From assembly GCA_017506865.1 (NCBI GenBank), contig JAFCMP010000076.1, positions 186,001 through 250,000 on the forward strand: a stretch of 64,000 nt of DNA, written 5' to 3'. This document shows, piece after piece, positions 11,801 through 63,138 of this stretch; the stretch's first letter is position 1, and the number at the start of each line of letters is the position of its first letter. The notes under the pieces are model-generated. The model saw only the letters and a program-made list of their open reading frames with translations. It had not been told where the DNA came from and made no database searches. Both the position numbers and the translations under genes were made by a program. This DNA comes from Tribonema minus (lineage: Eukaryota > Sar > Xanthophyceae > Tribonematales > Tribonemataceae).

Positions 11801-14665
11801 CGGCTTCTCCGCGCCGCGGCCCTCTCAGGCATAGGACAGAAGCGGCGTCCGATCGCCTGCTCCAGTGTCTGGCGCAGACTCCTCGGGTCCACAGCGGCAC
11901 GGGGTGTCAAGGGCAAAATATCGGGGCTGCTGGCCTCCATGTCGCAGTTTGGCGTAGGATACCGGTCTGGCGTCGAGCATGTGGCAGCGCGCGCGCGCGT
12001 GTGGCACGAGCTGTATGGCACCACAATCCAGCTGGACTGTGAGAACGCATTTAACAGTGTGGATCGCGCCGCCATTGTGCGGGGACTTATGCTCTTCTGT
12101 CCGGAGCTGCTCCCGCACTTTGAGTCCGTATACTGTGGTGACACTGCCCCAGAGATGCGAGTGGAGGTGAACGGTGAAGCTCGCATTATCTGCTCCCACC
12201 TAGGGTGCCAGCAAGGGGACCCTCTAGGGCCGCTGTACTTTGCAGTGGCAGCGGCATTCCTACTCTTCTACCCTGATGGAGTGAGTGCGACGCCCGGCAG
12301 TATGCCGGCCTACGGCCACAGCACAGCGGAACCGCCAGCCCCGCACTGCGCTTTCCTGGATGACCTCAACGTGCTGCAAGCTGCCTACTTCGACGATGCA
12401 GCGGCCGCTGGGGTGGCAGAGGTGATCCGTCGGCTTGCGGCAGGGGGCCTACGCGTTCGACCAGACAAGTCGCTGGCCATTGCCATGCGCGGCACAGTGT
12501 TTGATGAAGCGGCCAGAGCACGCCTGCGCGCCCTTGACATACCGTTTGTGGACGCCACCATGCCAGAATCCAGTCAGGGCTTTACGTCGGTCGGGGTACC
12601 GGTAGGGCACCCAGCCTATGTGCATGCTGCCATGAGCAAGCATCTTGTTGACGCAGGGACATGGCGATTGTCGTGGCAGCTAGCTGGGATGGCGCGGCAT
12701 CACCTACAGGCAGCACAATTCATTCTGCGCAGGTCACTGACAAAGCGCATGGGCTTCTTAGCTCGGGTCGTTGACACGGCTTTGAGTGAGACATGGCTGC
12801 ACGCATTTGACGGGTTCTGTGCATGGACGCTTGAACGCATGCTGCACCTGCACGGCTGCGCTACCGCGGCAGTCATGAAGTCACACCTGCTGGCCGCCTG
12901 CACTGCTGGTGACAATGAGGTAGCCAGCAGTGGCAGCGTGCTGGTATTGCCGCGCTTGGGCCCGCCAGAACTCACGGACATCGCAGTGCCACTGCGGGCG
13001 TCACGGTTGCCGGAGCGACGAGGCGGTCTGGGCATGCCGCTTTTGGGGCTACTGGCACCAGCCGCATACACGGCCCAGGCATGCACAACACTGCGGCCTG
13101 CAATAATTCATGCCACTGTGGCAGCAGGGGCCCTGAGGCTCGGCACTGACGAACACGGCGCAGTCACCTGGTTCGCGCAGCACTCATGCGCAATACGCGA
13201 GGACCAGGGACTGCCGCCAATCATCGAGGCCGTGCGACGCTCTACGCGAGCGCTGACAGCTGATGGCGGCGAAAAATCACGCACAGCTGTGGCCGAGCAG
13301 CTCCCAGCATCGTTGCTACGGTGGGCAGCGGATACAACGGCCGCAGCGTCGACGCTCCCCACTGCGGTGCAAGCGATCTACGCCGCAACTGCCGTCACGG
13401 AGACGGGGACCACTGAGCCAGCCCCACACACCCACGGCATTGTGCCTGGCGCCGAGGCGGCCGCTGCGGCGGCGACCGTACCTGGCCCTCAAGCCGCTGC
13501 CGCGGCTGCCTCTTCCACGCCCGCTAAAACACAAACTAGCGCGGAAGAAAGCAGCTGCAGCGGCGGGCAGGAGGACGACGACGACGACTGGGAGGCCTAT
13601 GCTGACGAGATCTGCAGAAAGGTAGTGCCCCGCCGCCGGCGCGGTCACTTCACGCACGGACTACAAGCCGGCCTTTCAAATGTTCTTCGACGTCAATACG
13701 AGGACTGCCTGGTGGAGGACCTAGAGGCTGCCTCGGCTGGTGCCGTGGGCAAGCCGACGCAGGCTACACTTATTGGTGACTTGCGTGACACCAGCCGCCG
13801 CCGCCAACAGGCTAGCGCGCGGGTCCTGGCGCAGCTGCGCAGCCAGCGTGCGTCCGGGGCAATGGCGTGGATGAGCGTGCCACCCGCTGCCAATGACCGC
13901 CCGGGTGCGGCGCCCATGTCCAGTATGGCAGCAGCCACGATGATTATGGTTGCGATCTTTATAGACGGGTGGGGCATACAGGGCGAGGTGTGCCCATGGC
14001 GGTGCAGTGACGTGAGCCCCACCTCCACGCATGCGATCAGCTGCCCCAGCCAGCACATACGGGGGCACAACGCGACACACACTGCCCAAAAGCGGTGCCT
14101 ACAGCGCATCTTGAGACAGCACCATGTCTCTATTGTCCGCAATGAGGACGCTAGCGTCTTCAAGGTACCGGGGTATCGGGCGGACACAGTCATTGACCCA
14201 GGGTGTCTGCACTTTAGCAGTGCATACCGTAACAAGGGAATAGTGCTAGACACAAGTGTGCGCGCACCCACAGCGAGCTCGTACCTGACAGGCAAAACAA
14301 ATGCCTCGAACACGGACGGCTATGCTGCTGGGGTGGGGGAGGACGCGAAGGTCAAGCACCACACCGGCACCTTGACGTCATCTTGGGCTTTTGTGCCATT
14401 CGTGCAGGAGTCGTACGGACGGCTGGGCAAGCAGACAAGCCTTTTTGTTAAGGAGTTGGCAATGCACTCAGCACTGTGCTCAGGGGGGGGGAAGGCAGAT
14501 GTGTTACGCAAGGCCGGGTTAGCTAAGCGTCAGATCCACATTGAGCTGAGCATATCGCTGGCGCGGGAGTTGGCGGAGCGCGTCATGGCATACACACGTG
14601 GAGCGCGAATGCTGGGCTGTGTTGCGGCGCCGGTATCCAAACTCCTAGGGCACAGCGCAGACTAG
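5813..14665 (+). CDS. R2-like retrotransposon polyprotein: zinc fingers, OTU protease, RT, restriction-like endonuclease
   Basis: About 2,950 residues if translated from the first in-frame ATG. The N-terminus has a PPPIPG tandem repeat (about 62-126) and basic, low-complexity repeats. Cys/His clusters occur near residues 575 (CRMC), 636 (CDGC) and 1340 (CPLC). An OTU-type cysteine protease lies at about 1094-1290: GNGNCLIHTALHG with the likely nucleophile Cys about 1099, and GHFELL with the likely catalytic His about 1287. Reverse transcriptase motifs are LDCENAFNSVD (about 2074), QGDPLGP (about 2134) and FLDD (about 2181). The C-terminal endonuclease begins with a Cys/His knuckle (CPWRC, about 2727), followed by RADTVID and LDTSV (about 2790-2815), which resemble a PD-(D/E)XK core. 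The protein would bind its RNA, nick target DNA and copy itself in place. The OTU domain may process the polyprotein or remove ubiquitin; that role is inference. Confidence 0.85.
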   Translation: MALHWLTSPASRGEGSPLKRKREQRNHGLNTGLWWWQVKAARQSDTRRRRRHGVGRWVRLVIPPPPPIPGPPPIPGPPPIPGPPPIPGPPPIPGPPPIPGPPPIPGPPPIPGPPPIPDPPPIPGPPPPQLMAQSSRPRPMPEVPVCSQVAELCRSMRRLHLSSADSDEPQGSGSHAHVKKRRRHLSSPGAANHCDRGCSQTKRPRHQPASDSESQAASLREALPPAAMIVLSLVVLPPPAANKRRRATLPPDSPVATTPMPKRRSRRKTPLVTAATAAPAAGPAPANPVVAQPRTTVTAAAACGRKVTSDLTAAATPRAADMVPKPPAGAAASDGQRGAAASRRGRRRGASAGPPLGRLGSIGSINRPESPSGKLSALAKAVTTTVPVPMEVGEPTSGPAGHQRRITSRPSQPASSGASPQWHPGPQPMEVTAAETPCTADMVTTAPAAAAAAAPGGERGAAAPRRGRRRASAQSTGSVTRPEPQSGGALAKPVTVTMPVPMEVGEPGPAGHQRRITSRSLQPAGSGASLSGGSVTSDGNSRNGHPISGITAMTVLAPAKTPAANRKVNIPGLDCRMCDKFIVRANPQAPGKNCPAAHACAHQRTRHTGKGKQFAELHVQLFLDHRPIYGGLEQVCDGCGNLFIRRTAASATTPSGDLGALDQCDAWRCADCLAGPVAATACTLSGCDRASGHDHIADIHTRPTTCAAAAGGAAVGGGNSLKPTAALLAAASKCGPIRKFLGCEHLGVDPRQAHASTLDGVADAPLPRLTRSSTMGVLPGESRASDSGATMSSNDRVPSTPGSAAAAVAAGAQSSECPRDPTGSHWQGLLGAAGALARRVRALALAPNRARVTVLCAWPTGTKLGPCRTSRRLHMRPAPSDAPATQTLLGRTSCAPLVSQMHDLTVTFSLLSLREEGNDLATVFDQLSLREPVVARSPRQPAGKRGESDVTQAGDNSTHATMTETAPVTAMVASGKRSRRRGKHRRRTQERQAQCDNSRAPLAPATTPPRGGASAPSAPISGPAKVTTVTVATRIPSTVCHTVTVEEQQDALAKATNYGFPTWHTGLQALHKQALGENTATLARGGELRPVSNVGNGNCLIHTALHGIDSVAVEHGLPAPALVIAMREALLDGMVAYVTQGAGKQGASMSSMRQLTAHAAAQPACTREQFDTYGTRARCLAIEYGTNETDSADSGHTLLLQRLQEEGVWGRPLGLSVWAIVAAVYAVSVTVWQAEPQATGSTQKSTGLVLAQLMGLPAVFAPATPAQPDCHLDVLWTPPGLYTNVGHFELLVAPAAAPPLPTTMTASATTQANSTHITAPSRTQPRTALQLPQQPEPLRCPLCTLAFWQLGQKEDSKQRGKLSAASRMAPVVAHFNGGSCTRSMLNPEASTSHCQQNLAAAYAKGIRQQVDHDPSGDRAPSGSSTCNTGAHHAKRVQEMSTMYGCTAEDFLRAVRKLSACTGACGLVHMSASAGQRQCALTSPCHTCRRNGSAPTRARPAVPPGQSEGGGAGSDGAAAAAGAAAATPPKPPAVPASGAANSKSSKKRPAATATGAQRRRRTAAAAAPPGSAGSRTQSNSLRLQDSSPPHGTAVGWADMDLDPPDDAASPPPPTTTTSGRPSKPQSRASLAWDLSTPSVVHALDQTNEADLLLLRFTTTANPFRTQLQCTQWARLVEHATRLLADATDSAREAARVRLHHGAGAFAHQVSQTLVQRGYRLLHLLAAMAFGRQPEGTGMPPAARLAALLSGDFAELLRKTLSAAAALRAPKPNNAATASAQTNFDADWTEADSRQQTACAALSGKRRGVGLAAARLEAREACAPADEVTAQVLAAKHPETGTRPGVVDTPMEQVRGLVRDARRHCLHGAGVATTAGPAGSGSPVFESGQAHDRSDRPEDAASAAGRRLEVEATDILSTLSAAGAGKAGGLDGLRYEHLLMAAGPGAPVKAATRPVGSASPGLAGDSESDVMEPAFAHHLAKVFTTLLVEPELLPEQSQRLLRAAALSGIGQKRRPIACSSVWRRLLGSTAARGVKGKISGLLASMSQFGVGYRSGVEHVAARARVWHELYGTTIQLDCENAFNSVDRAAIVRGLMLFCPELLPHFESVYCGDTAPEMRVEVNGEARIICSHLGCQQGDPLGPLYFAVAAAFLLFYPDGVSATPGSMPAYGHSTAEPPAPHCAFLDDLNVLQAAYFDDAAAAGVAEVIRRLAAGGLRVRPDKSLAIAMRGTVFDEAARARLRALDIPFVDATMPESSQGFTSVGVPVGHPAYVHAAMSKHLVDAGTWRLSWQLAGMARHHLQAAQFILRRSLTKRMGFLARVVDTALSETWLHAFDGFCAWTLERMLHLHGCATAAVMKSHLLAACTAGDNEVASSGSVLVLPRLGPPELTDIAVPLRASRLPERRGGLGMPLLGLLAPAAYTAQACTTLRPAIIHATVAAGALRLGTDEHGAVTWFAQHSCAIREDQGLPPIIEAVRRSTRALTADGGEKSRTAVAEQLPASLLRWAADTTAAASTLPTAVQAIYAATAVTETGTTEPAPHTHGIVPGAEAAAAAATVPGPQAAAAAASSTPAKTQTSAEESSCSGGQEDDDDDWEAYADEICRKVVPRRRRGHFTHGLQAGLSNVLRRQYEDCLVEDLEAASAGAVGKPTQATLIGDLRDTSRRRQQASARVLAQLRSQRASGAMAWMSVPPAANDRPGAAPMSSMAAATMIMVAIFIDGWGIQGEVCPWRCSDVSPTSTHAISCPSQHIRGHNATHTAQKRCLQRILRQHHVSIVRNEDASVFKVPGYRADTVIDPGCLHFSSAYRNKGIVLDTSVRAPTASSYLTGKTNASNTDGYAAGVGEDAKVKHHTGTLTSSWAFVPFVQESYGRLGKQTSLFVKELAMHSALCSGGGKADVLRKAGLAKRQIHIELSISLARELAERVMAYTRGARMLGCVAAPVSKLLGHSAD
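6000..6192 (+). repeat. 18-bp in-frame tandem repeat coding PPPIPG
   Basis: About ten copies of an 18-bp unit (CCGCCGAT(C/A)CCGGGCCCG core) encode a proline-rich run near the N-terminus of the retrotransposon protein. The unit length is a multiple of three, so copy-number change keeps the frame. Confidence 0.9.
6765..7410 (+). repeat. Tandem duplication inside the retrotransposon N-terminal region
   Basis: Two consecutive segments (about 6765-7085 and 7125-7410) encode the same ordered blocks: RGAAA, an RRGRRR basic patch, VPMEVGEP and GHQRRITSR. They differ by small in-frame indels. This basic, Pro/Ala-rich part is probably disordered and nucleic-acid binding. Confidence 0.75.
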
Positions 14666-14743
14666 GCTGCTGCGTTGACGCAAGCTTTTCGATTGCATAG
14701 GCAACCCGGCCTCCCTTGGGCCTTTATAAATACAAGTCCATAC
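14666..14743 (+). other. 3' UTR / 3' terminal signature of the R2-like family
   Basis: The stretch after the stop codon (TGCGTTGACGCAAGC, then a TATAAATACAAG block, ending CCATAC) is repeated almost unchanged at 50410-50487 and, reversed, at 53235-53312 and from about 61285. It is probably the part recognised by the RT when priming. Confidence 0.85.
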
Positions 14744-14756
14744 GTGCCTGGTGCCC
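14744..14756 (+). repeat. Right target-site duplication of R2-like copy 1
   Basis: GTGCCTGGTGCCC, identical to 4986-4998. The host tandem repeat resumes directly after it. Confidence 0.85.
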
Positions 14757-30800: not shown

Positions 30801-31590
30801 GCTACTGGCGGCACCAGCAACTCAAAATGTACAGCAAACGCTTTCAACACCACGTCAGTGGTCAACCAAGTGCTCGCCAGCATGAGTGCATGCAGTGGCG
30901 GCTTGGTAATGGGGTCATAAGCAAGAGTGGGGGTGTGCATCCCCAAAGTTGCGGCTCGCGTATGCCTGGGGCTGCTGTCTAGATGGATGCAAAGGGGCGA
31001 ATCCTGGTGCGCCCAGCTCGTGCTCCATCTGCTATGCGTCCTTATTGCCAATCTGACATGTAGTTTCTGATACCAAGCTGCCAACACTCATCTGGGCTTT
31101 AGGGGTTTACTTCAGAGGAGAACCCCCGGCGAGGGGGGCAGCGCAAGGCTGTTGTAGTACTACTTGTAGAGTCTGAGACAGCCAGAGTCTGACATGATAC
31201 AGAAACGTGTATTACGTTGCATAAACGCTTTAAAAGGCTTGCAGCAAGTGACACATTGACGGCTTGTTGCATACACAAGCACTGCATGCTTGTCGAGTCA
31301 CATATGTATACCTAGGTGCTGATTCAACTCACCAACTGGGTAACATTGAACTCATATTACTTGTGCCTCATGGCAAGCACTGGTATACAGGCTGTGCTAG
31401 CAGCGATCCACTTCACTGATGGTTTCACCCTGCCAGTGCCACAAGCCTGAGGGCCTGGCCTGCAACAAACTCTGAAAGGCCCAAGCTGTAGAGGTTTGCT
31501 TGCCTCGCCCGCAGTGGCACATGGCCCTTTGCAAGCTCACACGCCTGGTCCAGAAGTGCGTGCGGCATTCACAATGAGGATAACGGCATG
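30801..31590. repeat. Dispersed duplicated block, copy 1
   Basis: The block shares ordered landmarks with 57216-58052: a CACCAGCAACTCAAA start, TTACTTCAGAGGAGAACCC, CAGAGTCTGACATGATACAG, GCCTGGCCTGCAACAAA, and CTGGTCCAGAAGTGCGTGCG just before the end. Similarity stops abruptly near 31590, where virus-like sequence begins. The block contains no recognisable gene. Confidence 0.75.
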
Positions 31591-32214
31591 TTGCAGAGCA
31601 TGTCAATCGCCATTACGCAGATGTGTGTCAACCTGTACTGTGACACTTTGACCATTTCTGGTTTGAGCGTGACGCTGCCATCAGGTAACTACAGCGCGAC
31701 GTCGCTCACGGCGGCGCTCGCAGCCGCGTACCCGACGCGCAGCGTTTCATTCAATGTGATAACGAGTCGAATCACTTTCGCGAGCGCTACCACCATGGTC
31801 ATCAGCGGAAGCATGTGCAGCATCTTGGGCATTGACGAGGGCAGCAGCGGCTTGCAGATATCATCAAAATATAATATCGACTTGTCAGCAACGCACTGCA
31901 TCAATGTATTCACCAGCCTCGCCAACGCGTCACTCGACGCCTCCGCGAACAGGAGGCGAGGTCTTCTCGCGTCCGTGCAAGTCAACGTCGGACCCCTTTG
32001 CGCACTGCACTACATCGATCCCGTCGGCGCCCAAGGAGGGCTCATCGACGCTCGAAGCGTCGCTGAATTTAGGTTTAACCTTTTTGACGATCGCGGGATG
32101 CCTTTACTGGCCAGCTGTGCATTTAATGCCATGATCAAATTTATACAGATCGCGACTGGCGTGCGCGACCTGAAGATCGAGCGCCCTGGTAGTCTGGCCG
32201 CCCCCATGATTTAA
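31588..32214 (+). CDS. Putative minor virion protein of the PLV-like remnant
   Basis: A 208-codon ORF. The protein is beta-rich with no signal peptide. The pattern LPSGNYSATSLTAALAAAYP, then FNVITSRITFASA, then CSILGID, and a late FRFNLFDDRGMPL, is one I associate with minor capsid or fibre-like proteins of small DNA viruses and related elements. The first ATG (31588) overlaps the host junction; ATG 31600 (MSIAITQ) may be the native start. It lies 30 bases upstream of the next gene in the same direction. Confidence 0.55.
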   Translation: MLQSMSIAITQMCVNLYCDTLTISGLSVTLPSGNYSATSLTAALAAAYPTRSVSFNVITSRITFASATTMVISGSMCSILGIDEGSSGLQISSKYNIDLSATHCINVFTSLANASLDASANRRRGLLASVQVNVGPLCALHYIDPVGAQGGLIDARSVAEFRFNLFDDRGMPLLASCAFNAMIKFIQIATGVRDLKIERPGSLAAPMI

Positions 32215-32244
32215 AATGTAGCGATCCAACATACAGTTTCTCAC

Positions 32245-32697
32245 ATGGGGTTCGGTGGATGGCTTGCCAAAAAAAAATTTCGGCCGGCGCAACGGGTTCT
32301 AGGCAAGACGCTTCCGCGGGGTATTTCAGCGGCGGCGAAGTGGATTGGTAAAAAAGCACTTCCTGTACTCCGTGTAGGCACGGGGATCATTCGGGATATC
32401 ACTGCGAATCCCCTCGCCCACGCGGCCGCGTCTGCGGTTCTAGGCCCCGAGGCAGCGCTCGCGATGAACGGGATTTCAGCGGGCGCGGCGTTCGCGAACA
32501 GCGCGACGCGCGCGGCTCCGAGCATATTGCAAGGGTTCAAGAGCCCACAGACCGCAGGGCAGAGCGTGCAGGACCTCGCGCACCTGCAACAGCAATACCA
32601 TAGTTTAAAACTCAGGCGATTTCAGGAAAAAAACGTTGACGTGAGTAAAGCGAGTGACGGATGTCGGTTCCGGCGTCTTTATCATACCCCCAGGTGA
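32245..32697 (+). CDS. Small basic, partly hydrophobic virion-type protein
   Basis: 150 codons. The N-terminus is rich in Lys/Arg (MGFGGWLAKKKFRPAQ), followed by an Ala/Gly-rich amphipathic stretch (LAHAAASAVLGPEAALAMNG) and a Gln/Leu helix. This composition resembles small core or membrane-active virion proteins encoded near capsid genes of adenovirus-like and PLV elements. The function is inferred from composition and position. Its 3' end overlaps the start of the capsid gene by about 37 bases. Confidence 0.5.
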   Translation: MGFGGWLAKKKFRPAQRVLGKTLPRGISAAAKWIGKKALPVLRVGTGIIRDITANPLAHAAASAVLGPEAALAMNGISAGAAFANSATRAAPSILQGFKSPQTAGQSVQDLAHLQQQYHSLKLRRFQEKNVDVSKASDGCRFRRLYHTPR

Positions 32698-33959
32698 AAC
32701 CAGTTTCTTGTCAGGCCATCAGTTCCAGATTTAGCAGTCCCCCGGTGTCTGGGACCTCATTCGCACCCGGTTCTATCATCTCTATAGATATCGCGAATTG
32801 CGGTGCTCGCAACATGTGGCTTGACCCGGCCCAACCCATGCTTTCATTCACGGTTTCATGCACTTTAGTGGGGGGGACCGCGCCTACTTGGGGTGCGCAC
32901 ACTTACAACTTTATTCAGACACTCACCCTGTGGAGTAGCGTGGGAAGTTCGCAATTGGAACAGGTGACCAATTGTAATGCCCTACATGCAGTATTACGCG
33001 ACTTATGCAGCTCACAAGATATGGTGAGGACTAGGGATAGCATTCTCCTAGGCAGTGACCCTACCAGACTGCGCTCGCCGGTTCAGAATGCCGCGGCTGT
33101 GACTTCCGTACAGTATAGCGTGCCCCTGATTTCAATAATCGGCCTGCTCTCCAACACGGACAGGATGATTGCGATTCACGCTCTTGGATCTCCCTTAAGG
33201 CTTGACATCGGAGGTTGCGCAGGCATCCACGGCGATTGCCTCGGGAGGCACAGTCCCTGCTACGAGTGCGACGGTTACACTTAGTAACATCACATTGGAC
33301 TGCAGCTACATCACTCTCGTCGACAGCGTGGCCGACCAGATCAAGAGTTTGACCGGAAATCGCTATGATTGGTCGTCCTCGCAATGGAAGACGTTTAGGA
33401 CGATCCACCCCGCTAACCAACTGAGCAATACGCTGATGATTCCGTCACGTGTATCCAGCATGAAAAGTTTAATCATCATTCAGCGTGAATCGGCAACAGA
33501 GTACAATATACTCTGTACAATATAGCTGCGTCGTCAGTCACCCAGAGAATCAGGAACCTGCTCAAACAATTCGCTGTTAGGATAGGTGGACAGTGGGTGA
33601 CTAGCATCCCAGTCCAATGTGGCGCTCAGGCTATTCCGGCCTACCTTGAAGCTACACGCATCTTTTCCAACCCGGCGAGCGAGAGTACATGCGGTCTTAT
33701 CGCCAGCGATAGTTGGACCTTGGACACCTCTGTCGCCCCAACAGGAACTAGCGTTGAGGGGTCATTTCTTATAGGCTCGGAGTTGGATGTGTTCAGCCAA
33801 CAGAAGCTCGTCAGTGGACACAGCACGTCAGCAAACGCCCTCGTGTGCGAGATCGCCTACTCTGCCGCGCCTCTGGCTGTCAATTTCGACTCGTTTTGCG
33901 AGAGTGATGCTCAGTTCCACATCGATGGCGCAACGGGCAGTATCATGGTAGCGGTTTGA
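32661..33959 (+). pseudogene. Putative major capsid protein gene, two frameshifts
   Basis: The reading frame runs 32661-33205, then shifts near 33196-33205, continues to about 33500, then shifts again and ends at 33959 (about 430 codons in all). The second shift coincides with a 14-bp tandem duplication (33502-33515 repeated into 33516-33524). The protein begins MSVPASLSY and contains GSIISIDIANCG, YNFIQTLTLWSSVGSS and later VRIGGQWVTSIPVQCG, a beta-rich jelly-roll-like pattern. A length of about 430 residues is at the short end for PLV capsid proteins. It is the largest gene in the cluster and sits where PLV capsid genes usually do. The alternative is another structural protein. Confidence 0.55.
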
Positions 33960-33967
33960 GCAGGTGA

Positions 33968-34412
33968 AATGTAAAGGCAATGTAAATGATAAATTGTTTT
34001 TTTCATTATGACAATCGTCACAATCTCCAATGTTTTTGAAATGTATCGTTATGAAATGATGCCCGAGAGTAACCGCCAACCCCAACGTGGCGGGTATCAA
34101 CACTCGCACTTTGAGACGGCGCGGCACTCTGTCGCAGTAGAACGTGCCCTGCGCGCTGTCCGATGTGCTGGCGAGCGCGACGGTCACCCAGCTGTCGCTG
34201 CCCGTGGTCGACGTGTCGAGACACCGCGCGATCTCCGGCGCGCTGAATTGCAGCGCGTACGCGACCGTACCCGTCAGCGAGGGGGCGATGAACGAGACGG
34301 ATGCGCGGTACGGACCGGGTTGCATCTCGGGCACCTGGCACTCGAATTGACAAGGCGCGTCGAACGCATTGACGGCATAGCGTGATCGCACTGTGAGGGT
34401 GTAGTCCATCGT
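33968..34412 (-). CDS. Putative beta-rich virion protein, convergent with the capsid gene
   Basis: The likely start is MDYTLTVRSRY (ATG about 34412). The protein is beta-rich (GPYRASVSFIAPSL, TVAYALQFSAPE, FYCDRVPRRLKVRVLIP) and looks like a second capsid or penton-type protein. The frame stays open into the antisense of the capsid gene (to 33828), so its native stop may be lost. My end point is approximate. Confidence 0.45.
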
Positions 34413-34592
34413 TTTGTCTACCTGCAATATTAAAATCACTGACAGCCTCCGGGTGCTGTGTGGTGAAACTCCGGGTGCTGCTGACCATTTTGACAATTTG
34501 ACCACTTTGACCATTTGACAACTCACCAAATTCAACGACTTTGTTCAATGACCATATTTAAGATAGGGTTTATTATAAGGGGAGGGTGATAT

Positions 34593-34988
34593 GGTAGGGT
34601 TAGGTTGAGAGTAGGGAGGGGGTAAGGGTGAGGGTACCGGGTAGGGTTAGGTTGAGAGTAGGGAGGGGGCAAGGGTGCGGGTACCGGGTAGGGTTAGGTT
34701 GAGAGTAGGGAGGGGGTAAGGGTGAGGGTACCGGGTAGGGTTAGGTTGAGAGTAGGGAGGGGGTAAGGGTGAGGGTACCGGGTAGGGTTAGGTTGAGAGT
34801 AGGGAGGGGGTAAGCGTGAGGGTTAGGGTTAGGGTTAGGGTTCGGGTTCGGGTAGGGTGGGGGTAAGGGTGAGGGTACCGGGTAGGATTAGGTTGAGAGT
34901 AGGGAGGGGGTAACGGTGAGGGTACCGGGTAGGATTAGGTTAGGGTTAGGGTTAGGGTTAGGGTTGGGGGGGTGGGGGGGTGGGGGGG
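34593..34988. repeat. Telomere-like tandem array (47-bp unit plus pure TTAGGG runs)
   Basis: About six copies of a 47-bp G-rich unit (GGGTAGGGTTAGGTTGAGAG, a GGGAGGGGGTAAGGGTGAGG core, then GTACC) alternate with perfect (TTAGGG)n runs at about 34819-34841 and 34938-34965. The array ends in a G-rich block (34966-34988). It lies between the virus remnant and the PPR pseudogene. G-strand polarity is on the plus strand throughout. Confidence 0.88.
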
Positions 34989-35000
34989 TACCTACCCCCG

Positions 35001-35030
35001 TGGAGTGTCATAAATGTTTATGACACTCCA
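35001..35030. repeat. Perfect 14-bp hairpin at the end of the telomere-like array
   Basis: TGGAGTGTCATAAA, two bases (TG), then TTTATGACACTCCA. The arms are perfect inverted repeats. It begins about 12 bases after the G-rich end of the array, preceded by GGGGGTACCTACCCCC, itself an imperfect palindrome. Confidence 0.9.
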
Positions 35031-35316
35031 GAGTGTAGCGGCATGTGTGCACGCACGCTTTGCGTCAAACTCCTGGGCTGCTTTCTAGTCAAATGTCTCG
35101 GCATTGGCAGCGGCGCACCAACTCGAGTTGCCCTCTATCCTACGACGCAAACAGCATGGGCCTTAGTGAGGCACACCTTGAGCGGAACTGCGCGTGGCCC
35201 TGGAGTTGCAGCATGACAGCCGTTGTACTGGCACCGCCATCAACTGACAGTCCTGCGAGCTTCTGACGAGGACAGTATCGCTAGCAATTTCACAATGCGA
35301 CAGCAGCACACTTCAC

Positions 35317-35961
35317 GTGCCAGTGGAGGCAAGCCGTCGCCACCAGGCTCATCGGCCAATAGGATTCACACTCTGGGCAGACAGAAAGTGGAATGATGCT
35401 CTCCAAATCTTCGAGAGCATTGAGGAGCCCACTGCTCTGGAAGTGAGGGCGCTGCTCGCCACCATGGCCTACAATCATCAGCCCCGGCACGCCATGATCG
35501 CTCTGAGACAGTTGCGCAACACAGGAGCTGTGGCCTTCCATGACTATGAGCTCGCCATTCATGCGCATGCAAACGGTTCACCCATGCAAGCCTTGGAGCT
35601 GCACGAGATGGAGCGGGAGGGGTTTGGCTGGACTCAACGTGCATGCAGCACTGTGCTGCTAGCGTGCGGCAAAGCGGGGCGGCTCAATGCCGCACTGCAG
35701 CTGATTGACGAGATGGAAAAGCGCACCTTCAGCCCTAACGATGTAGATTATCTCAAGCTCATTGAGGCATGTGTCCGCGGCAAGAATGTGATTCGTGCTG
35801 GCGACAGGGGTGGCAGCAAGCAAGCCTTGGAGTTCCTGCAGCGTATGCAAGACAAGGGTCCTGTGCCTGACATTCGGCATTATGCTGCTGCGATGAAGGT
35901 TTGCGTGACGGAGGGAGACTCGGCCAAAGCTGTCAACATATTTCGGAGTATGCGAGATCAG
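35317..35961 (+). CDS. PPR-Smr copy A, exon with five PPR motifs
   Basis: Repeats are visible as helix pairs ending in spacer motifs (FSPN, PVPD). The donor CAG/GTGATC leaves phase 0 and joins MRDQ to GIKPN of the next exon, recreating a complete PPR boundary. Further open frame to 35994 (VIVMKTYVCV) is intron read-through. Upstream homology to copy B persists, but with stop codons. Confidence 0.75.
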
Positions 35962-36226
35962 GTGATCGTGATGAAAACATATGTTTGCGTGTAGGTAGCA
36001 GTGCATTGTGGTGGCACAAAGAACCCCCTGTGTATCATTCAATTTTTTTCCAAAGTTTCTGCTGCCATCTTGCTGCCAAGATCACATGGTTGGCAGTATT
36101 GCAGAGCCTGGTTATAGCTGAGAGTCGTTCAGCCAGGCTGCAGATCGTGAAGGGAAAACAATGTTATGTTGCTATAGATTTATTTTTTGGGGTCAGTGAC
36201 AATGGTAAGGGTCAGGGTTAGGATAT

Positions 36227-36839: not shown

Positions 36840-39800
36840 CTACCTCACATCACCATCGCTCAAATCTATGTCATCGCCTCCACTGGGTGAATCTGAACCT
36901 CCCTGACCAGACTCCTGGCCCAAGGGGAACTCTTCTGCGACCTTGGTCAGCAGTAGGTTCCAACTGGACATAGGGTCTGCCTCAGCCTGCTCGCTAGTAA
37001 CTGCGGTGCTGTAGTAGTCAGGCCTCAGCCGCACGGTGGTTAAACGCGTGACTGGGTGCCCGTTGTAATGCACGCGAAATGTGTACTTGCCGGCCCGGGG
37101 CAAGTATTCCTTGAGCACTGCACGGCTCCAATCAGTTGCACTTTTGACTCTCACGGTCTGACCATGGTAAGTCGCACCAAAGTCTGGTGGGATCCCAGGG
37201 CACATTTCCTGCACCACCTTGGGGCTAGAAACCGTGACGCCCAGATCCTTTGCGCGCTGCTGAGTGGCTTCAGCCAACGCAATTGCGCATTGCAACTGCC
37301 GCTTTGTGAAGTCCTCCCAGTCACCATCTTCATAGCGCACGCGCCAGTACGGTGCGAGGTAACCAGTGATGGTTCCCCATAGGTACTTGACTTGTTGCTT
37401 AAGCGCGCCGCGCTCCTCACGCACCACCTTAGTACCTCTCGGGAGTAGGGCCAGCGCAGCTTCTTTCGTGGCTACGCGCCGGTCCTCCCGTGGTATCCTC
37501 ATGGCGTAGTCAGGCATGTCATTCACATGCTTCAACTCGTAGAGCGCGTGAAAAGTATCGAGCGTCCAAGGCATGGCAACCTCGAGTGCATCGTCCTCTG
37601 TCTTCCATGTGCTCAACGTACCATCTCTGAGCAGCCAACGGTAGTCCCACGAACCATTGGGGTTGTACCGGCGGTCTACCAGCCTCTCTAGCCAGCCATC
37701 CTTGGGCAGTTGCTTAATGTCTTCCTCATTAAGCACCGCGTAGGGCTTGTCAAGTTCCATGACACTTGGCCTTAAATGAAAAGGCTTCATGTTGGTCACA
37801 TGTGCCCGCGTGCGACGCACACGGCGCCCCATCATGCGGCATGAAAATGACAACCCAGATCCGCCAGTTTCCTCTGCTACCACCCATGGTCCAATGAATT
37901 TAGGGTCCAGCTTCCTGGAGCGTCCCTTGGCAGGCTTCTGCTTGATCATGACCAGGTCCCCAACTTTAACCTTCATTGCGCGCTTGACCGCTTCATTAGC
38001 CTTGTCAACTCTGCGCGCCTTGATGCCATATGCCTCATCAATATCCTTTTGTGCCATTTTGAGGTTGAAGCGCTTGCGTTCAATCTCAGAATGTAAGTCA
38101 CCACCATGCACTTCATCAGGGAAGGTTTCGAATGGCAGGGACGGCTCGCGGCCATACACACAGTAGAAAGGGCTAAGGCCTGTTTCTTCTCTGGGGGTGG
38201 ACCAGAGAGCAAACTGCACAGCATCAACGCCCTCATGCCAATTCTGTTGGTCTTGTCAACCGAGGCAGTCAGAATGGCCATGATGCGTTCATTTTGCCGT
38301 TCAGCGACCCCATTTGCCTGTGGGTGGTATGCACTTGTGTCAATTATCATGATCCTGAAAATTGAGCACAAATCGCGCACCACAATGTTCAGAAACTCCT
38401 TGCCTTGGTCCGACACCAGCTCCTCTAACATGGATCCCATTTCTAGGATTACCTTGTACAAGAGCCTTGCAACCGTATGCATGTCCTTGTTTTTAATTGG
38501 CATGAGCCAGCAAAATGCAGAGCGTGCCTCAATTACTGTCAGCAGCCCTATGTGCCCCTCTGAGGACACCACCGAGGTCATGGTGATGTCAGTGTGCGCT
38601 CGCTGAAACATGCGAGTTGGCAGTGTTAACATCATCTTGGCCTTGCCAGTCGTAGCCTTCTTGCGCTGTAGGCAAGACATGCAACTAGTGACATACGTGT
38701 GCACATCGCTGCTGATGCGAGGCCAGTAAAAGCGCTCAAACAGGCGGACATACGTGGCGCTTGCGCCTGCGTGACCGGCCGTGGCATCGTCATGCCCCAG
38801 CCTCAAAACCAGAGGGCGCAGCGCGGCGGGTACAAACCATTGGCGCAGCACCATCCCGCGTTTGGGGTGGCTGGTGGCCAGATGTACCAGCAGGCCGTCC
38901 TCCTCGTGACAGTACCAGTGACGGTTCACCATTAAGTGTGCAGCCAGCTCACTATCCTGCGGGTATATATTGTCCCTCAGAGTGCGTGACACTGCCTGAC
39001 ACAAGGGGTCCCGCTGCTGGAGCTCAATAAACGCTTCCCGGCTTAGCACTGCCGGCACAGGCGTGGTCCCGTCAACTGGTTCAGGGACCAGTTCATGGCT
39101 GGGCCTGCTGAGTGTGCGCTTACGGCGTGGCTCCGACACTCCCTCTGTTCGCTGCGGGGGGATGGCGCCCCCTGGTAGCGGTACAGCGGTGTTGGCAGCG
39201 ACCCGGCGGCGCTTGGCAGATATGCTCGCAGTCTTGCTAGATGCCGGGGAGTCCCAGTCCGACTCTGCCGCCTCATCCATGCATGCATTAGCATACATAT
39301 GCAAAGTAGCTGGACTGAAAGACATCGACGCAGTCTCTCCATCCGTCCACGAAGAGTCTTCCTCGTCCAGCTCACATAGCAAAACATTGACCTATTGGAC
39401 CGTAAGCGTAGCCAGCCTGGCTGCTATGCTTGAGTCCTCACTTGCATTCTTCATGGCTAGCTCATTGAGCGAGAAGGGAGTGCCCCACTCATTGCTCACC
39501 AGTTTGCCCCTGAAGTTAGCAATTTTAATTGCCGCTGCAGAAACATGTGACCCATGGTTGGTCGCCTTTGCTTGGTCAGCAAACTCCCCTAAGGGCGCCG
39601 CAAACTCTTCCACAAAATTTGCAAACTTCACCCCTGAAGGTGGTGCTGCAAAGCATGGGATTGAGTCTGACCATTGCTCGTCTGCTTGCTCATACTCTCT
39701 AGGAGCGTCCAACTCTTTTTGCATAGGGAGCCTGGACAGGCCGTCTGCATTTGAGTTCACCAGGCCTGGTCGGTGTTGTACGGTAATGTCGTACTCCAGC

Positions 39801-47720: not shown

Positions 47721-47729
47721 GTCCATCAG
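47721..47729 (+). repeat. Left TSD of R2-like copy 2
   Basis: GTCCATCAG, repeated at 50488-50496. Copy B of the intron has ACAAGTCCATCAGTC at the matching place with no insert. Confidence 0.85.
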
Positions 47730-50487
47730 CAGCGCGCGCGCGCGTGTGGCACGAGCTGTATGGCACCACAATCCAGCTGGACTGTGAGAACGCATTTAAC
47801 AGTGTGGATCGCGCCGCCATTGTGCGGGGACTTATGCTCTTCTGTCCGGAGCTGCTCCCGCACTTTGAGTCTGTATACTGTGGTGACACTGCCCCAGAGA
47901 TGCGAGTGGAGGTGAACGGTGAAGCTCGCATTATCTGCTCCCACCTAGGGTGCCAGCAAGGGGACCCTCTAGGGCCGCTGTACTTTGCAGTGGCAGCGGC
48001 CTTCCTACTCTTCTACCCTGATGGAGTGAATGCGACGTCCGGCAGTATGCCGGCCTACGGACACAGCACAGCGGAACCGCCAGCTCCGCACTGCGCTTTC
48101 CTGGATGACCTCAACGTGCTGCAAGCTGCCTACTTCGACGATGCAGCGGCCGCTGGGGTGGCAGAGGTGATCCGCCGGCTTGCGGCAGGGGGCCTACGCG
48201 TTCAACCAGACAAGTCGCTGGCCATCGCCATGCGCGGCACAGTGTTTGATGAAGCGGCCAGAGCACGCCTGCGCGCCCTTGACATACCGTTTGTGGACGC
48301 CACCATGCCAGAATCCAGTCAGGGCTTTACGTCGGTCGGGGTACCGGTAGGGCACCCAGCCTATGTGCATGCTGCCATGAGCAAGCATCTTGTTGACGCA
48401 GGGACATGGCGATTGTCGTGGCAGCTAGCTGGAATGGCGCGGCATCACCTACAGGCAGCACAGTTCATTCTGCGCAGGTCACTGACGAAGCGCATGGGCT
48501 TCTTAGCTCGGGTCGTTGACACGGCTTTGAGTGAGACATGGCTGCACGCATTTGACGGGTTCTGTGCATGGACGCTTGAACGCATGCTGCACCTGCACGG
48601 CTGCGCTACCGCGGCAGTCATGAAGTCACACCTGCTGGCCGCCTGCACTGCTGGTGACAATGAGGTAGCCAGCAGTGGCAGCGTGCTGGTATTGCCGCGC
48701 TTGGGCCCGCCAGAACTCACGGACATCGCAGTGCCACTGCGGGCGTCACGGTTGCCGGAGCGACGAGGCGGTCTGGGCATGCCGCTTTTGGGGCTACTGG
48801 CACCAGCCGCATACACGGCCCAGGCATGCACAACACTGCAGCCTGCAAAATTCATGCCACTGTGGCAGCAGGGGCCCTGAGGCTCGGCACTGACGAACAC
48901 GGCGCAGTCACCTGGTTCGCGCAGCACTCATGCGCAATACACGAGGACCAGGGACTGCCGCCAATCATCGAGGCCGTGCGACGCTCTACGCGAGCGCTGA
49001 CAGCTGATGGCGGCGAAAAATCACGCACAGCTGTGGCCGAGCAGCTCCCAGCATCGTTGCTACGGTGGGCAGCAGATACAACGGCCGCAGCGTCGACGCT
49101 CCCCACTGCGGTGCAAGCGATCTACGCCGCAACTGCCGTCACGGAGACGGGGACCACTGAGCCAGCCCCACACACCCACGGCATTGTGCCTGGCGCCGAG
49201 GCGGCCGCTGCGGCGGCGACCGTACCTGGCCCTCAAGCCGCTGCCGCGGCTGCCTCTTCCACGCCCGCTAAAACACAAACTAGCGCGGAAGAAAGCAGCT
49301 GCAGCGTTGGGCAGGAGGACGACGACGACGACTGGGAGGCCTATGCTGACGAGATCTGCAGGAAGGTAGTGCCCCGCCGCCGGCGCGGTCACTTCACGCA
49401 CGGACTACAAGCCGGCCTTTCAAATGTTCTTCGACGTCAATACGAGGACTGCCTGGTGGAGGACCTAGAGGCTGCCTCGGCTGGTGCCGTGGGCAAGCCG
49501 ACGCAGGCTACACTTATTGGTGACTCGCGTGACACCAGCCGCCGCCGCCAACAGGCTAGCGCGCGGGTCCTGGCGCAGCTGCGCAGCCAGCGTGCGTCCG
49601 GGGCAATGGCGTGGATGAGCGTGCCACCCGCTGCCAATGACCGCCCGGGTGCGGCGCCCATGTCCAGTATGGCAGCAGCCACGATGATTTTGGTTGCGAT
49701 CTTTATAGACGGGTGGGGCATACAGGGCGAGGTGTGCCCATGGCGGTGCAGTGACGTGAGCCCCACCTCCACGCATGCGATCAGCTGCCCCAGCCAGCAC
49801 ATACGGGGGCACAACGCGACACACACTGCCCAAAAGCGGTGCCTACAGCGCATCTTGAGACAGCACCATGTCTCTATTGTCCGCAATGAGGACGCTAGCG
49901 TCTTCAAGGTACCGGGATATCGGGCGGACACAGTCATTGACCCAGGGTGTCTGCACTTTAGCAGTGCATACCGTAACAAGGGAATAGTGCTAGACACAAG
50001 TGTGCGCGCGCCCACAGCGAGCTCGTACCTGACAGGCAAAACAAATGCCTCGAACACGGACGGCTATGCTGCTGGGGTGGGGGAGGACGCGAAGGTCAAG
50101 CACCACGCCGGCACCTTGACGTCATCTTGGGCTTTTGTGCCATTCGTGCAGGAGTCGTACGGACGGCTGGGCAAGCAGACAAGCCTTTTTGTTAAGGAGT
50201 TGGCAATGCACTCAGCACTGTGCTCAGGGGGGGGGAAGGCAGATGTGTTACGCAAGGCCGGGTTAGCTCAGCGTCAGATCCACATTGAGCTGAGCATGTC
50301 GCTGGCGCGGGAGTTGGCGGAGCGCGTCATGGCATACACACGTGGAGCGCGAATGCTGGGCTGTGTTGCGGCGCCGGTATCCAAACTCCTAGGGCACAGC
50401 GCAGACTAGGCTGCTGCGTTGACGCAAGCTTTTCGATTGCATAGGCAACCCGGCCTCCCCTGGGCCTTTATAAATACAAGTTCATAC
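47730..50487 (+). mobile_element. 5'-truncated R2-like copy 2
   Basis: It corresponds to copy 1 from about 11985 (just before RT motif A) to the 3' terminus, with scattered substitutions and a perfect 9-bp TSD. Truncation at the 5' side fits incomplete reverse transcription. The coding frame is 47744-48880, then a 1-base deletion near 48850 (CTGCAAAATT versus CTGCAATAATT in copy 1) shifts it; the frame resumes to the stop at 50409. RT motifs from LDCENAFNS on and the whole endonuclease are present, but without an N-terminus it is not autonomous. Confidence 0.92.
47744..50409 (+). pseudogene. RT-endonuclease coding remnant of R2-like copy 2
   Basis: It carries RT motifs B (QGDPLGP) and C (FLDD) and the C-terminal CPWRC/RADTVID/LDTSV endonuclease. 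One frameshift near 48850 separates them. It has no start context of its own. Confidence 0.88.
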
Positions 50488-50489
50488 GT

Positions 50490-52979: not shown

Positions 52980-53234
52980 CATTATGAAGGCATACATGAA
53001 CGACAAACGCCTGGATGAGGCTGAGCGTGTCATCGGCAGGATGCGTGCTGCTGGGGTGGAACCAATCCTTGGCACATGGACAGGCATAATTCATGCAGCA
53101 GATGCTGATGGTGACGTTAAGAAGGTGGACCAGCTGTACCGCGATGCTCTGTCGTCAAAGGCCATCGATCCGTACAGGCTATGGCTCAGCAGTGCCATCA
53201 AAGATTCCACTGGTAATACTCTGCCCGAGGGTAC
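52980..53234 (+). CDS. PPR-Smr copy A, exon with PPR motifs 9-10 (interrupted)
   Basis: Joined to the previous exon it reads ITFNSIMKAYMNDKRLDEAE and then a last repeat (GTWTGIIHAADADGDV). The coding frame continues to LPEGT and is then broken by R2-like copy 3. The exon's last four bases lie at 54425-54428, followed by a GTGAGT donor. In the present allele the frame runs into the element's 3' UTR and stops at about 53316. Confidence 0.78.
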
Positions 53235-54418
53235 GTATGGACTTGTATTTATAAAGGCCCAAGGGAGGCCGGGTTGCCTATGCAATCGAAAAGCTTGCGT
53301 CAACGCAGCAGCCTAGTCTGCGCTGTGCCCTAGGAGTTTGGATACCGGCGCCGCAACACAGCCCAGCATTCGCGCTCCACATGTGTATGCCATGACGCGC
53401 TCCGCCAACTCCCGCGCCAGCGATATGCTCAGCTCAATGAGGATCTGACGCTTAGCTAACCCGGCCTTGCGTAACACATCTGCCTTCCCCCCCCCTGAGC
53501 ACAGTGCTGAGTGCATTGCCAACTCCTTAACAAAAAGGCTTGTCTGCTTGCCCAGCCGTCCGTACGACTCCTGCACGAATGGCACAAAAGCCCAAGATGA
53601 CGTCAAGGTGCCGGTGTGGTGCTTGACCTTCGCGTCCTCCCCCACCCCAGCAGCATAGCCGTCCGTGTTCGAGGCATTTGTTTTGCCTGTCAGGTACGAG
53701 CTCGCTGTGGGCGCGCGCACACTTGTGTCTAGCACTATTCCCTTGTTACGGTATGCACTGCTAAAGTGCAGACACCCTGGGTCAATGACTGTGTCCGCCC
53801 GATACCCCGGTACCTTGAAGACGCTAGCGTCCTCATTGCGGACAATAGAGACATGGTGCTGTCTCAAGATGCGCTGTAGGCACCGCTTTTGGGCAGTGTG
53901 TGTCGCGTTGTGCCCCCGTATGTGCTGGCTGGGGCAGCTGATCGCATGCGTGGAGGTGGGGCTCACGTCACTGCACCGCCATGGGCACACCTCGCCCTGT
54001 ATGCCCCACCCGTCTATAAAGATCGCAACCATAATCATCGTGGCTGCTGCCATACTGGACATGGGCGCCGCACCCGGGCGGTCATTGGCAGCGGGTGGCG
54101 CGCTCATCCACGCCATTGCCCCGGACGCACGCTGGCTGCGCAGCTGCGCCAGGACCCGCGCGCTAGCCTGTTGGCGGCGGCGGCTGGTGTCACGCAAGTC
54201 ACCAATAAGTGTAGCCTGCGTCGGCTTGCCCACGGCACCAGCCGAGGCAGCCTCTAGGTCCTCCACCAGGCAGTCCTCGTATTGACGTCGAAGAACATTT
54301 GAAAGGCGGGCTTGTAGTCCGTGCGTGAAGTGACCGCGCCGGCGGCGGGGCACTACCTTTCTGCAGATCTCGTCAGCATAGGCCTCCCAGTCGTCGTCGT
54401 CGTCCTCCTGCCCGCCGC
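53235..54418 (-). mobile_element. 5'-truncated R2-like copy 3, inside a PPR-Smr exon
   Basis: The minus-strand copy starts within the endonuclease-proximal linker (match to copy 1 from about 13566) and reaches the shared 3' end. It is flanked by GGGTAC at 53229-53234 and 54419-54424. Coding remnant 53313-54353 encodes the CPWRC/RADTVID/LDTSV region, intact in frame. It disrupts the host exon two codons before its splice donor. Confidence 0.9.
53313..54353 (-). pseudogene. Endonuclease-domain remnant of R2-like copy 3
   Basis: The 346-codon frame contains the whole C-terminal restriction-like endonuclease but no RT. It is almost identical to the ends of copies 1 and 2. It is probably not translated. 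Confidence 0.85.
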
Positions 54419-57215: not shown

Positions 57216-58052
57216 GTGACCAGCGGCACCAACTCAAATGGCAAACGCTTCCAACACGACGTCAATATGATTGCATGCAGTGCGGCGGCTTGGGTATACT
57301 AGGCTAGTAGGGTCAGGTGCAAAGGCGAGGGTGCACGTGCTTGTGCATCCCAGGTTTCGCTTATGCTGGGGCTGCTGTCTATATATAGATGCATTCAAAC
57401 TTTGAAGGGGCGGACTCCGGATCGGATATCCTGGTGCGCCCAGCTCGTGGTCCACCTGCTATGCGTCCTTAATGCCAATCTGAGACTTAGTTTCTGGTAC
57501 TGAGCTGCCAATAATCATCTGGGCGTTTTGGAAGCTTACTTCAGAGGAGAACCCGCCGGCGAGGGGGGCACTGCAGCGCAAGGCTTTTGTAGTAGAGTCT
57601 GAAAATGCCAGAGTCTGACATGATACAGAAACGTGTATTACATTGCATAAAAAGCATTGAAAGGCTGGCAAGCAAGTGACACGTGTTCACTTGTGTGAGT
57701 GTTCAGCTGCACGTTGACAGCTTGTTGCATACACAAGCATGCTTGTCCAGTCACATGCATACCATTAGGTGCAGATTCAACTGGCCAACTGAGTAGCATG
57801 GATCTCAATGACATATTACCTGTGCCTCATGGCACGCACTCGTTAACAGGCTGTGCTAGCAGCGAGATACTTCGCATGCTTTCACCCTGCCACAATAGCC
57901 TGGCCTGCAACAAAGTTTGAAAGGCCCAAGGTGCGAACTTTGAGCTCTGCTCACCACGCCCGCAGTGGCACATGGCAGTTTGCAAGCTCACACGCCTGGT
58001 CCAGAAGTGCGTGCGGCATTCACAATGAGAACAACAGCATGTGGGCTCGCAG
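57216..58052. repeat. Dispersed duplicated block, copy 2
   Basis: Counterpart of 30801-31590, with the same ordered landmarks. After GCATTCACAATGAGAACAAC it continues as GCATGTGGGCTCGCAG, where copy 1 switches to virus-like sequence. Confidence 0.75.
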
Positions 58053-60160: not shown

Positions 60161-60440
60161 TAAACGAGTACGAGTGCTGTACGAGTACTGGTATGACAAT
60201 CGTGTACGAGTACTCGTCCTGTATGAGTACTGCCTCCAAAATGATGTACGAGTACTCGTCCTGCACGAGTATGGCCTTCGAAATCATGTACGAGTACTCG
60301 TCCTGTACGAGTACTGCCTCAGGATCCATGTACGAGTACTCGTACTGCACGAATTCTGCCTCCGAAATCATGTACATACGAGTACTCGTACAGTACGAGT
60401 ATCTCTGTAAGAGTGTTCTACGAGTACGAGTACGAGTTTT
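60160..60440. repeat. 42-bp minisatellite with palindromic core (array 1)
   Basis: Units begin GTACGAGTACTCGTCCTG and repeat every 42 bases at about 60203, 60245, 60287 and 60329, with degenerate ends. The core CGAGTACTCG is a perfect palindrome. As 42 is a multiple of three, frames stay open across the array on both strands (14-residue MYEYSSCTSTASEI-type repeats). I regard those ORFs as by-products. Confidence 0.9.
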
Positions 60441-61060: not shown

Positions 61061-61284
61061 GGCATTTATGTACGAGTACTCGTCCTGTACGAGTACGGCC
61101 TCCGAAATGATGTACGAGTACTCATCCTGTATGAGTACGGCCTTCGACATCATGTACAAGGCGACACACCTACAACATGGCATTTCCACAGCCACAAGTG
61201 GAATATAATAAAAGTACGAGTACTCGTCCTGTACGAGTACGGCCTCCAAAATCATGTACGAGTACTCGTACAGTACGAGTACAC
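61060..61284. repeat. 42-bp minisatellite with palindromic core (array 2)
   Basis: Units at about 61072, 61114 and 61215 match array 1. A 60-base unrelated spacer lies between the second and third. The array directly abuts the 3' end of R2-like copy 4, and more CGAGTAC text follows the copy at 62083-62110, so the copy landed inside the minisatellite. Confidence 0.85.
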
Positions 61285-62077
61285 ATGGACTTGTATTTAT
61301 AAAGGCCCAAGGGAGGCCGGGTTGCCTATGCAATCGAAAAGCTTGCGTCAACGCAGCAGCCGAGTCTGCGCTGTGCCCTAGGAGTTTGGATACCGGCGCC
61401 GCAACACAGCCCAGCATTCGCGCTCCACGTGTGTATGCCATGACGCGCTCCGCCAACTCCCGCGCCAGCGATATGCTCAGCTCAATGTGGATCTGACGCT
61501 TAGCTAACCTGGCCTTGCGTAACACATCTGCCTTCCCCCCCCCTGAGCACAGTGCTGAGTGCATTGCCAACTCCTTAACAAAAAGGCTTGTCTGCTTGCC
61601 CAGCCGTCCGTACGACTCCTGCACGAATGGCACAAAAGCCCAAGATAACGTCAAGGTGCCAGTGTGGTGCTTGACCTTCGCGTCCTCCCCCACCCCAGCA
61701 GCATAGCCGTCCGTGTTCGAGGCATTTGTTTTGCCTGTCAGGTACGAGCTTGCTGTGGGCGCGCGCACACTTGTGTCTAGCACTATTCCCTTGTTACGGT
61801 ATGCACTGCTAAAGTGCAGACACCCTGGGTCAATGACTGTGTCCGCCCGATACCCCGGTACCTTGAAGACGCTAGCGTCCTCATTGCGGACAATAGAGAC
61901 ATGGTGCTGTCTCAAGATGCGCTGTAGGCACCGCTTTTGGGCAGTGTGTGTCGCGTTGTGCCCCCGTATGTGCTGGCTGGGGCAGCTGATCGCATGCGTG
62001 GAGGTGGGGCTCACGTCACTGCACCGCCATGGGCACACCTCGCCCTGTATGCCCCACCCGTCTTTCAAGATCGCAAG
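61285..62077 (-). mobile_element. 5'-truncated R2-like copy 4
   Basis: The minus-strand copy spans the last ~0.8 kb of the element (match to copy 1 from about 13950) to the 3' terminus. The TSD cannot be resolved, because both flanks are minisatellite. It encodes only the endonuclease (CPWRC to the C-terminus). The open frame around it, 61046-62335, is a chance chimera. Confidence 0.85.
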
Positions 62078-62229: not shown

Positions 62230-63138
62230 ATGTTCCGGACCAAGCTCCCTGTCCCTGGCCGCTATCTCGCCAGATGTCTCGGCAGTGGCAATGGCGTAAC
62301 AACGCGAGTTTTCGTTCTTCCAACGCAGACAGCATCGGCTTTGGTGAAGCACACCATTAGCGGAGATGCTTGTGACCTTGGTGCTGCAGCACGAGAGCCG
62401 CCGTACTCGCATCGCCATCACCTAACTGTCCTGCAGCGAGCCTCGCACGAGCACGGCATCGTCAGGAACTTTACAACGAGGCAGCAGCACACTTCACGTG
62501 GAGGCAAGCGTCCATCAACATCACCGGCCAGTAGAATGCGCGCTTTGAGCGGACAAGGACGCTGGCAAGCCGCTCTTCGAGTGTTCGAAAGCATTCAGGA
62601 GCCCACTGCTCTGGAAGTGAGGGCGCTTCTCGCCACCATGGCCTACAATCATCAGCCCCGGCACGCCATGATCGCACTAAGACAGCTGCAGGGTTCAGGA
62701 GCCATGATCTGCCGCGATTATGAGCTTATCATCCAAGCTTATGCAGACGAGTTGCCTTTCGAAGCCATGGAGCTGCTGTACGAGATGGAGCGGGAGGGGT
62801 TTGGCTGGACTCATCGTCCATGCAGCATTGTGCTGCTAGCGTTCGGCAAAGCGGGGCGGCTCAGTGCCGCACTGCAGCTGATTGACGAGATGAAACAGCG
62901 TGGCATCAGCCCGAACGATGTAGATTATCTCATGCTCATTGTGGCATGTGGTCACGGCAAGAATGTGATGCGTGCTGGTGACAGGGGTGGCAGCAAGCAA
63001 GCCTTGGAGCTGCTGCAGCGCATGCAGGACACGGGTCCTGTGCCTGACATTCGGCATTACGATGCTGCGATGAAGGTGTGCGCGACGGAGGGAGACTTGG
63101 CCAAGGCCATCAACATATTCGAGAGTGCGCGGGATAAG
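62230..63138 (+). CDS. PPR(-Smr) gene copy B, first exon
   Basis: Starts MFRTKLPVPGRYLARCLG, basic and hydroxylated, possibly an organelle transit peptide. It then carries five PPR motifs parallel to copy A (ALEVRALLATMAYNHQPRHA, GFGW, ISPN, PVPD). The frame is open from the ATG, unlike copy A. By analogy with copy A the exon ends at AAG followed by GCAATG (a GC donor), giving SARDK joined to GMKPN. Reading on to 63261 would be intron. It probably binds organelle RNA and continues past the window. Confidence 0.78.

Follow-up and report, generated by a model that had tools for sequence, protein, structure and literature searches.

Polinton-like viruses (PLVs) include a group for which Tetraselmis viridis virus S1 (TVS1) is given as the namesake, and PLVs of this group carry a module of major capsid protein (MCP), minor capsid protein, and packaging ATPase. 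Endogenous PLVs have been described as numerous in protists (PMC10120064). We analyzed a 64-kb stretch (the window), positions 186001 to 250000 of contig C76 in the 158-Mb genome of Tribonema minus (Xanthophyceae), in which a preliminary description had placed a compact island of virion-type genes. The island was borne out, with virus homology extending from 31591 to 34435 at 81.5% nucleotide similarity to an intact relative in the same genome, copy C110. It is very probably the truncated, pseudogenized end of an endogenous PLV, from a lineage with many copies in T. minus. The fragment itself is ordinary decay, and the family behind it is the finding.

The first piece of the window MCP gene matched 31 stretches of the alga's own genome, with E values from 1.7e-137 (itself) to 8.8e-20. 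These stretches represent 25 places including the window (six places gave two rows each), and such counts are lower bounds for large families. C37 and C469 look like one sequence present twice, as do C44 and C75. An unbroken MCP frame of at least 420 residues was found at 11 of the 25 places, and about 9.5 kb was read on each side of 10 of these 11 copies (C112 was left out). The module of TVS-group PLVs was present in all 10, and the genes for packaging ATPase, penton, and MCP agreed among them in order and strand and were similarly spaced. (In C490, the penton gene is split in two, and in C290, the ATPase gene is truncated.) Gene H, which falls into two similarity groups, was also found in all 10. 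Gene I was found in all but C2 and C290; of these eight copies, five have it on the minus strand and three on the plus strand. The order typified by C110 is a replicase-like open reading frame (ORF), rve integrase, B, C, D, ATPase, F (minus strand), penton, H, MCP (plus strand), and I (minus strand). The public gene model for C146 joins penton and MCP as one 654-residue protein, and such a fused model may hide capsid genes from searches.

It had been proposed that the element consists of structural genes only. This holds for the window fragment, which keeps only some of the virion genes and within which, as anticipated, no replication or integration genes were seen. However, related islands with ATPase or replicase genes were looked for elsewhere in the genome and found, and the other copies carry ATPases, integrases, and replicases. 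Therefore, the virion-only state is due to truncation of the window copy. An A32-like packaging ATPase, as expected of PLVs, is present at the family level, and the window fragment has no gene for it.

Predicted structures were consistent with capsid genes. A penton fold, the type expected of a PLV minor capsid protein, was predicted for the C110 gene homologous to 31591 to 32214, in agreement with the earlier reading of 31588 to 32214 as a penton gene. The first half of the C110 MCP was predicted to be a capsid jelly roll. This supports part of the proposal that 32661 to 33959 encodes a jelly-roll capsid protein, but the second half did not model. At about 427 residues, the MCP has a length that fits a double jelly-roll MCP. 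Together, the two folds uphold the view of these genes as PLV-like virion genes of an algal double-stranded DNA (dsDNA) virus. The two outcomes named in advance as contrary to it, structures without jelly rolls and homologues that are clearly host genes, were tested for and not encountered, the fold result covering the first half of the MCP only.

For both MCP and penton, the top predicted-structure match was TVS1. Unlike the Tribonema MCP, the matched TVS1 protein has 616 residues, and named PLVs were absent among the sequence-level matches. The best solved-structure matches of the MCP were giant-virus capsid proteins, and several unnamed predictions ranked just under TVS1. These matches would also suit genes from another jelly-roll dsDNA virus (a virophage, a mriyavirus-like virus, or a phycodnavirus-type giant virus) that merely resemble those of PLVs. 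However, the same PLV ranked first for two different proteins, and we regard such an origin as unlikely. At the sequence level, only chance hits to solved structures were obtained for the MCP, ATPase, and recombinases.

Among the three closest intact copies, the synonymous difference was 0.7 to 1.5 and the ratio of nonsynonymous to synonymous substitution rates (dN/dS) of the MCP was 0.09 to 0.16. Therefore, at least this clade diverged under selection. Scans of the window ORFs gave nothing above the cutoff in Pfam and no convincing match in PHROGs, and 20 ATG frames in the window reach at least 200 residues, as might be seen if the island's ORFs were chance frames or ordinary host genes. This is the least probable explanation that we considered, and it is refuted by the collinear homologues, their intact frames under purifying selection, and the capsid folds. 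An Rfam scan of the window found nothing at gathering scores.

The window fragment most likely has no function now (Table 1). At its left junction, 31591, host homology ends where virus homology begins. The start codon at 31588 lies inside the host-paralogous stretch, so the ORF from 31588 owes its start to host sequence that by chance continues in frame into a penton gene without its 5' end. Gene H has lost its normal stop, and its frame extends 37 nt into the MCP gene. Gene I has also lost its stop and continues into the MCP gene. The MCP region consists of three pieces in two frames, because it differs in length from the C110 gene at two points, with a frame shift at each. Of the four capsid-type genes originally proposed, the penton and MCP genes stand, but 32661 to 33959 is not one open frame, and the fourth gene lies not at 34018 to 34548 but in the minus-strand frame at 33828 to 34409, which is the one that matches the conserved gene. 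The telomere-like repeats noted at one boundary were confirmed as a 47-nt array spanning 34593 to 34941. However, the duplicated host block had been placed on one side only, and duplicated host sequence flanks both sides. A PPR-repeat ORF lies inside the right host flank (35317 to 35994). No terminal repeats were found at the window copy.

Table 1. Features of the virus-like island and its flanks (window positions)
Feature	Position	Strand	Remarks
Host left flank	31001..31590		Paralogous to 57428-58042 (77.5%); alignment reaches 31591
Penton (minor capsid) gene	31591..32214	+	83% identity to C110 gene; about 46 5' codons missing
Gene H, small conserved gene, role not assigned	32245..32697	+	101/124 residues identical to C110
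MCP gene	32661..33959	+	Reading frame disrupted twice, by +1 and by +14 nt compared with C110
Gene I, small conserved gene, role not assigned	33828..34409	-	87% identity to C110; start at 34409
Final virus-like stretch	34470..34520	+	51 nt, 88% to copy C511 at +2266
Telomere-like minisatellite and G-rich tract	34563..34989	+	47-nt unit with TTAGGG runs
Palindrome, 30 nt	35001..35030		Between the array and the right host flank
Host right flank	35076..36226	+	Paralogous to 62257-63401 (77.7%)

Codon changes on the window branch are mostly synonymous (120 versus 57 nonsynonymous, with gene I left out), as might be expected if the alga had domesticated the capsid genes and kept them for a host function. 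However, the frameshifts and the two lost stops contradict this, and a virus lineage selected until a recent loss would give the same pattern. Domestication is therefore extremely unlikely.

Several observations weigh against the interpretation of the island as a decayed PLV end. The counts on the window branch do not differ significantly from those on the C110 branch (32 nonsynonymous and 88 synonymous; Fisher P = 0.37, gene I left out). The ratio is thus not clearly raised, and therefore loss of function was recent or is undetectable in this way. (The same comparison with gene I, which was read in the wrong frame, gave P = 0.009.) Elsewhere in the family, dN/dS is higher, at 0.14 to 0.24 for integrases and 0.25 for the C2/C290 MCP pair, and most of the distant pairs are saturated. 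The MCP model is poor, with a pLDDT of 49.6 and residues 235 to 415 below 50, so that one jelly roll is shown and not two. Whole-model TM-scores of the MCP to its matches are only about 0.2 to 0.4, with a root-mean-square deviation near 20. Pox_A32 scored above the cutoff in 6 of 8 relatives scanned but in only one of five Tribonema proteins scanned, being below the cutoff or absent for C110, C146, C154, and C2. The paralogous host segment carries other DNA at the equivalent place, which leaves no clean empty site and the event undated. Finally, the frameshifts in the window could be assembly errors, and Bellas et al. (2023, PMC10120064) warn of assembly artifacts at such loci.

The ends of two other copies were found. 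In C522, 17.2 kb (-7797 to +9417 around the MCP start) lie between terminal inverted repeats (TIRs) of 106 nt that are 80% alike, with two palindromes of about 36 to 40 nt at each end. In C154, 6.6 kb (-4168 to +2462) lie between 268-nt inverted repeats (92%) and hold, besides the ATPase, penton, and MCP genes, gene I in duplicate and an ORF resembling a replicase; an integrase was not recognized. TIRs, another likeness to TVS-group PLVs, are thus found in two copies, and 1 of the 10 (C522) falls within the 14 to 40 kb expected of PLVs. No convincing flanking repeat pair was found in the other eight copies within the 19 to 20 kb read around each, where the full ends were mostly not reached. 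An element as short as C154 without a recognized integrase might suggest that the window island is a mobile virion-gene cassette, moved in trans by other copies. We consider this very unlikely, because the window copy showed no terminal repeats, starts within the penton gene, and has a broken MCP gene, and C154 itself carries an ATPase gene and a replicase-like ORF. Also, a size of 17.2 kb together with TIRs and an rve integrase suits a PLV or Polinton and not a giant virus, which argues further against an origin from other jelly-roll viruses.

All five integrases tested matched rve above the cutoff. This standalone integrase is a difference from most PLVs, for which papers of 2015 and 2021 describe it as exceptional or rare. 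The C522 enzyme, encoded inside the TIRs, is 32% identical to that of C110 over 357 aligned positions, N-terminal extension included. Replicase families were recognized in three copies (C524, C490, and C522). C524 has an AEP_C962R primase with DUF5906, C490 has DUF5906, and C522 has a 1,068-residue protein with a CyRepA1-like region (1.7e-18, below the model's equivalog cutoff) that also matches a PHROG helicase (1.4e-6). The N-terminal replicase domain of C522 is shared with two more copies, C110 and C154 (E values of 4e-10 for C522/C110 and 9e-12 for C154/C110). We take this domain to be the one labeled TV-Pol, a name that no match gave for these proteins. Pfam found no protein-primed DNA polymerase B in the replicase ORFs of C522, C524, and C490 or in 10 ORFs of C110; part of the C522 ORFs were scanned.

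C522 also encodes, inside its TIRs, what is likely a tyrosine recombinase, judging from its sequence matches. The gene lies tail to tail with the rve integrase gene, with a 29-nt overlap. The protein matched Pfam ResT-TelK at 5.4e-6 (0.5 bit under the cutoff), a PHROG integrase at 0.0032, and NCBIfam XerA at 0.0066 (far under the cutoff). C524 has the same tail-to-tail arrangement and the same 29-nt overlap, and its candidate was recognized by eye, solely from motifs that we take to be those of such a recombinase. A candidate in C171 had a Pfam match of 0.083 only. A single recombinase family in C522, C524, and C171 was considered and rejected, as the candidates do not find each other above noise. 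In ORFs of at least 80 residues scanned around the C522 pair, there was no [YF]xDD reverse-transcriptase motif. The C522 recombinase might resolve or close genome ends, because its nearest match is the catalytic domain of the ResT/TelK telomere resolvases and the termini have paired palindromes. We tentatively propose a xanthophyte PLV lineage that combines two enzymes in one element (C522 and possibly C524), namely a tyrosine recombinase and an rve integrase that is standalone and virus specific. In this lineage, the replicase would be swapped between copies that share the capsid module, and the recombinase might act on genome ends and not in integration. As a whole, this proposal is possible rather than probable. 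A 2025 study ascribes a pair of rve integrase and tyrosine recombinase to nested retrotransposons; if the C522 recombinase is confirmed, its pair departs from that account. Phaeovirus-type recombinases have been reported in Tribonema (PMC13236599).

Like Maverick-Polintons, the family has an rve integrase, TIRs, a jelly-roll MCP, a penton protein, and an A32-like ATPase. A protein-primed DNA polymerase B, however, did not turn up in those large ORFs that were scanned, and the replicases match AEP/DUF5906 or CyRepA1 instead. A mavirus-like polymerase was likewise not seen in the ORFs scanned, unlike in mavirus-type virophages. Mriyaviruses (yaravirus and Pleurochrysis endemic viruses), described as small relatives of giant viruses, resemble the family in having a jelly-roll MCP and, in many of them, a penton-like minor capsid protein. 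However, in this comparison, made without a tree, their genomes are 35 to 45 kb, versus 17.2 kb here.

Such a virus would insert its linear genome with the rve integrase, and repeated insertions would account for the many copies. The helicase-bearing replicase would copy the genome, and the A32-like ATPase would package it into icosahedral capsids built of jelly-roll MCP with penton vertices. Exit as virions may be possible. In the window, deletion or break repair may have removed everything to the left of about penton codon 47. The remainder would then have been joined to host DNA on one side and to the telomere-like array on the other, with frameshifts and stop losses accumulating after the truncation.

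The lineage looks undescribed as far as our searches reach, though of a known kind. An MCP profile search of 5.8 billion proteins, the reach of which is limited by its word-based first step, gave 13 matches (7 from Tribonema and 6 others on contigs of 1.7 to 6.8 kb). The ATPase profile gave 19 (2 from Tribonema and 17 others). MCP and ATPase queries retrieved no relative from IMG/VR in pattern-limited scans, a scan of INPHARED with the MCP as sole query found no match, and PHROGs had nothing for the MCP, all in keeping with the earlier suggestion of an undescribed lineage. One ATPase had a weak PHROG terminase match (4.6e-5). The main text of PMC10120064 does not name Tribonema, which its supplementary tables could list. 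We found no literature linking "polinton-like virus" and "xanthophyte," and among the matches listed for Tribonema with polinton, virophage, or endogenous-viral terms there was no such report.

In four copies (the window copy, C110, C146, and, on the other strand, C490), a telomere-like tract follows the MCP start at a distance of 1.9 to 2.5 kb. In an interval of +1.8 to +2.6 kb, chosen after looking, 3 of 10 fetched copies had a tract, versus 0.29 expected (7 tracts in 196 kb; Poisson P = 0.003). However, six tracts occur in the window beyond the island, and at that background about 0.8 would be expected and three is only marginal (about 0.04, by hand). C511 and C522 have no tract, and those of C290 and C171 lie at 4.6 kb or more. 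These positions are no more than a hint that the element targets telomeres.

The window contains other repeats. A retroelement on the minus strand (36840 to 39382) combines an H2C2 zinc finger with an rve core, shows a Tudor-like match that is weak and falls below the cutoff, and fits the Tudor-bearing Gypsy mentioned for Tribonema (PMC12477816). Repeats at 98 to 99% identity (11984 to 14745 and 47729 to 50489, with inverted pieces at 53230 to 54418 and 61285 to 62076) are probably a dispersed non-LTR retrotransposon, because the protein encoded by 61285 to 62076 recurs within an 1,848-residue ORF beside C110 that has a reverse-transcriptase match just below the cutoff. A 42-nt minisatellite (60164 to 60401 and 61068 to 61157) is rich in CGAGTACTCG-type palindromes. 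The longest ATG frame in the window has 2,950 residues.

With this family, small endogenous DNA viruses gain a further lineage, one from Xanthophyceae, for which we found no description. It also shows that a locus with capsid genes only can be an end torn off something larger. Furthermore, a single sequenced alga holds relatives whose genes are intact and which make dual integration enzymes and replicase exchange testable.
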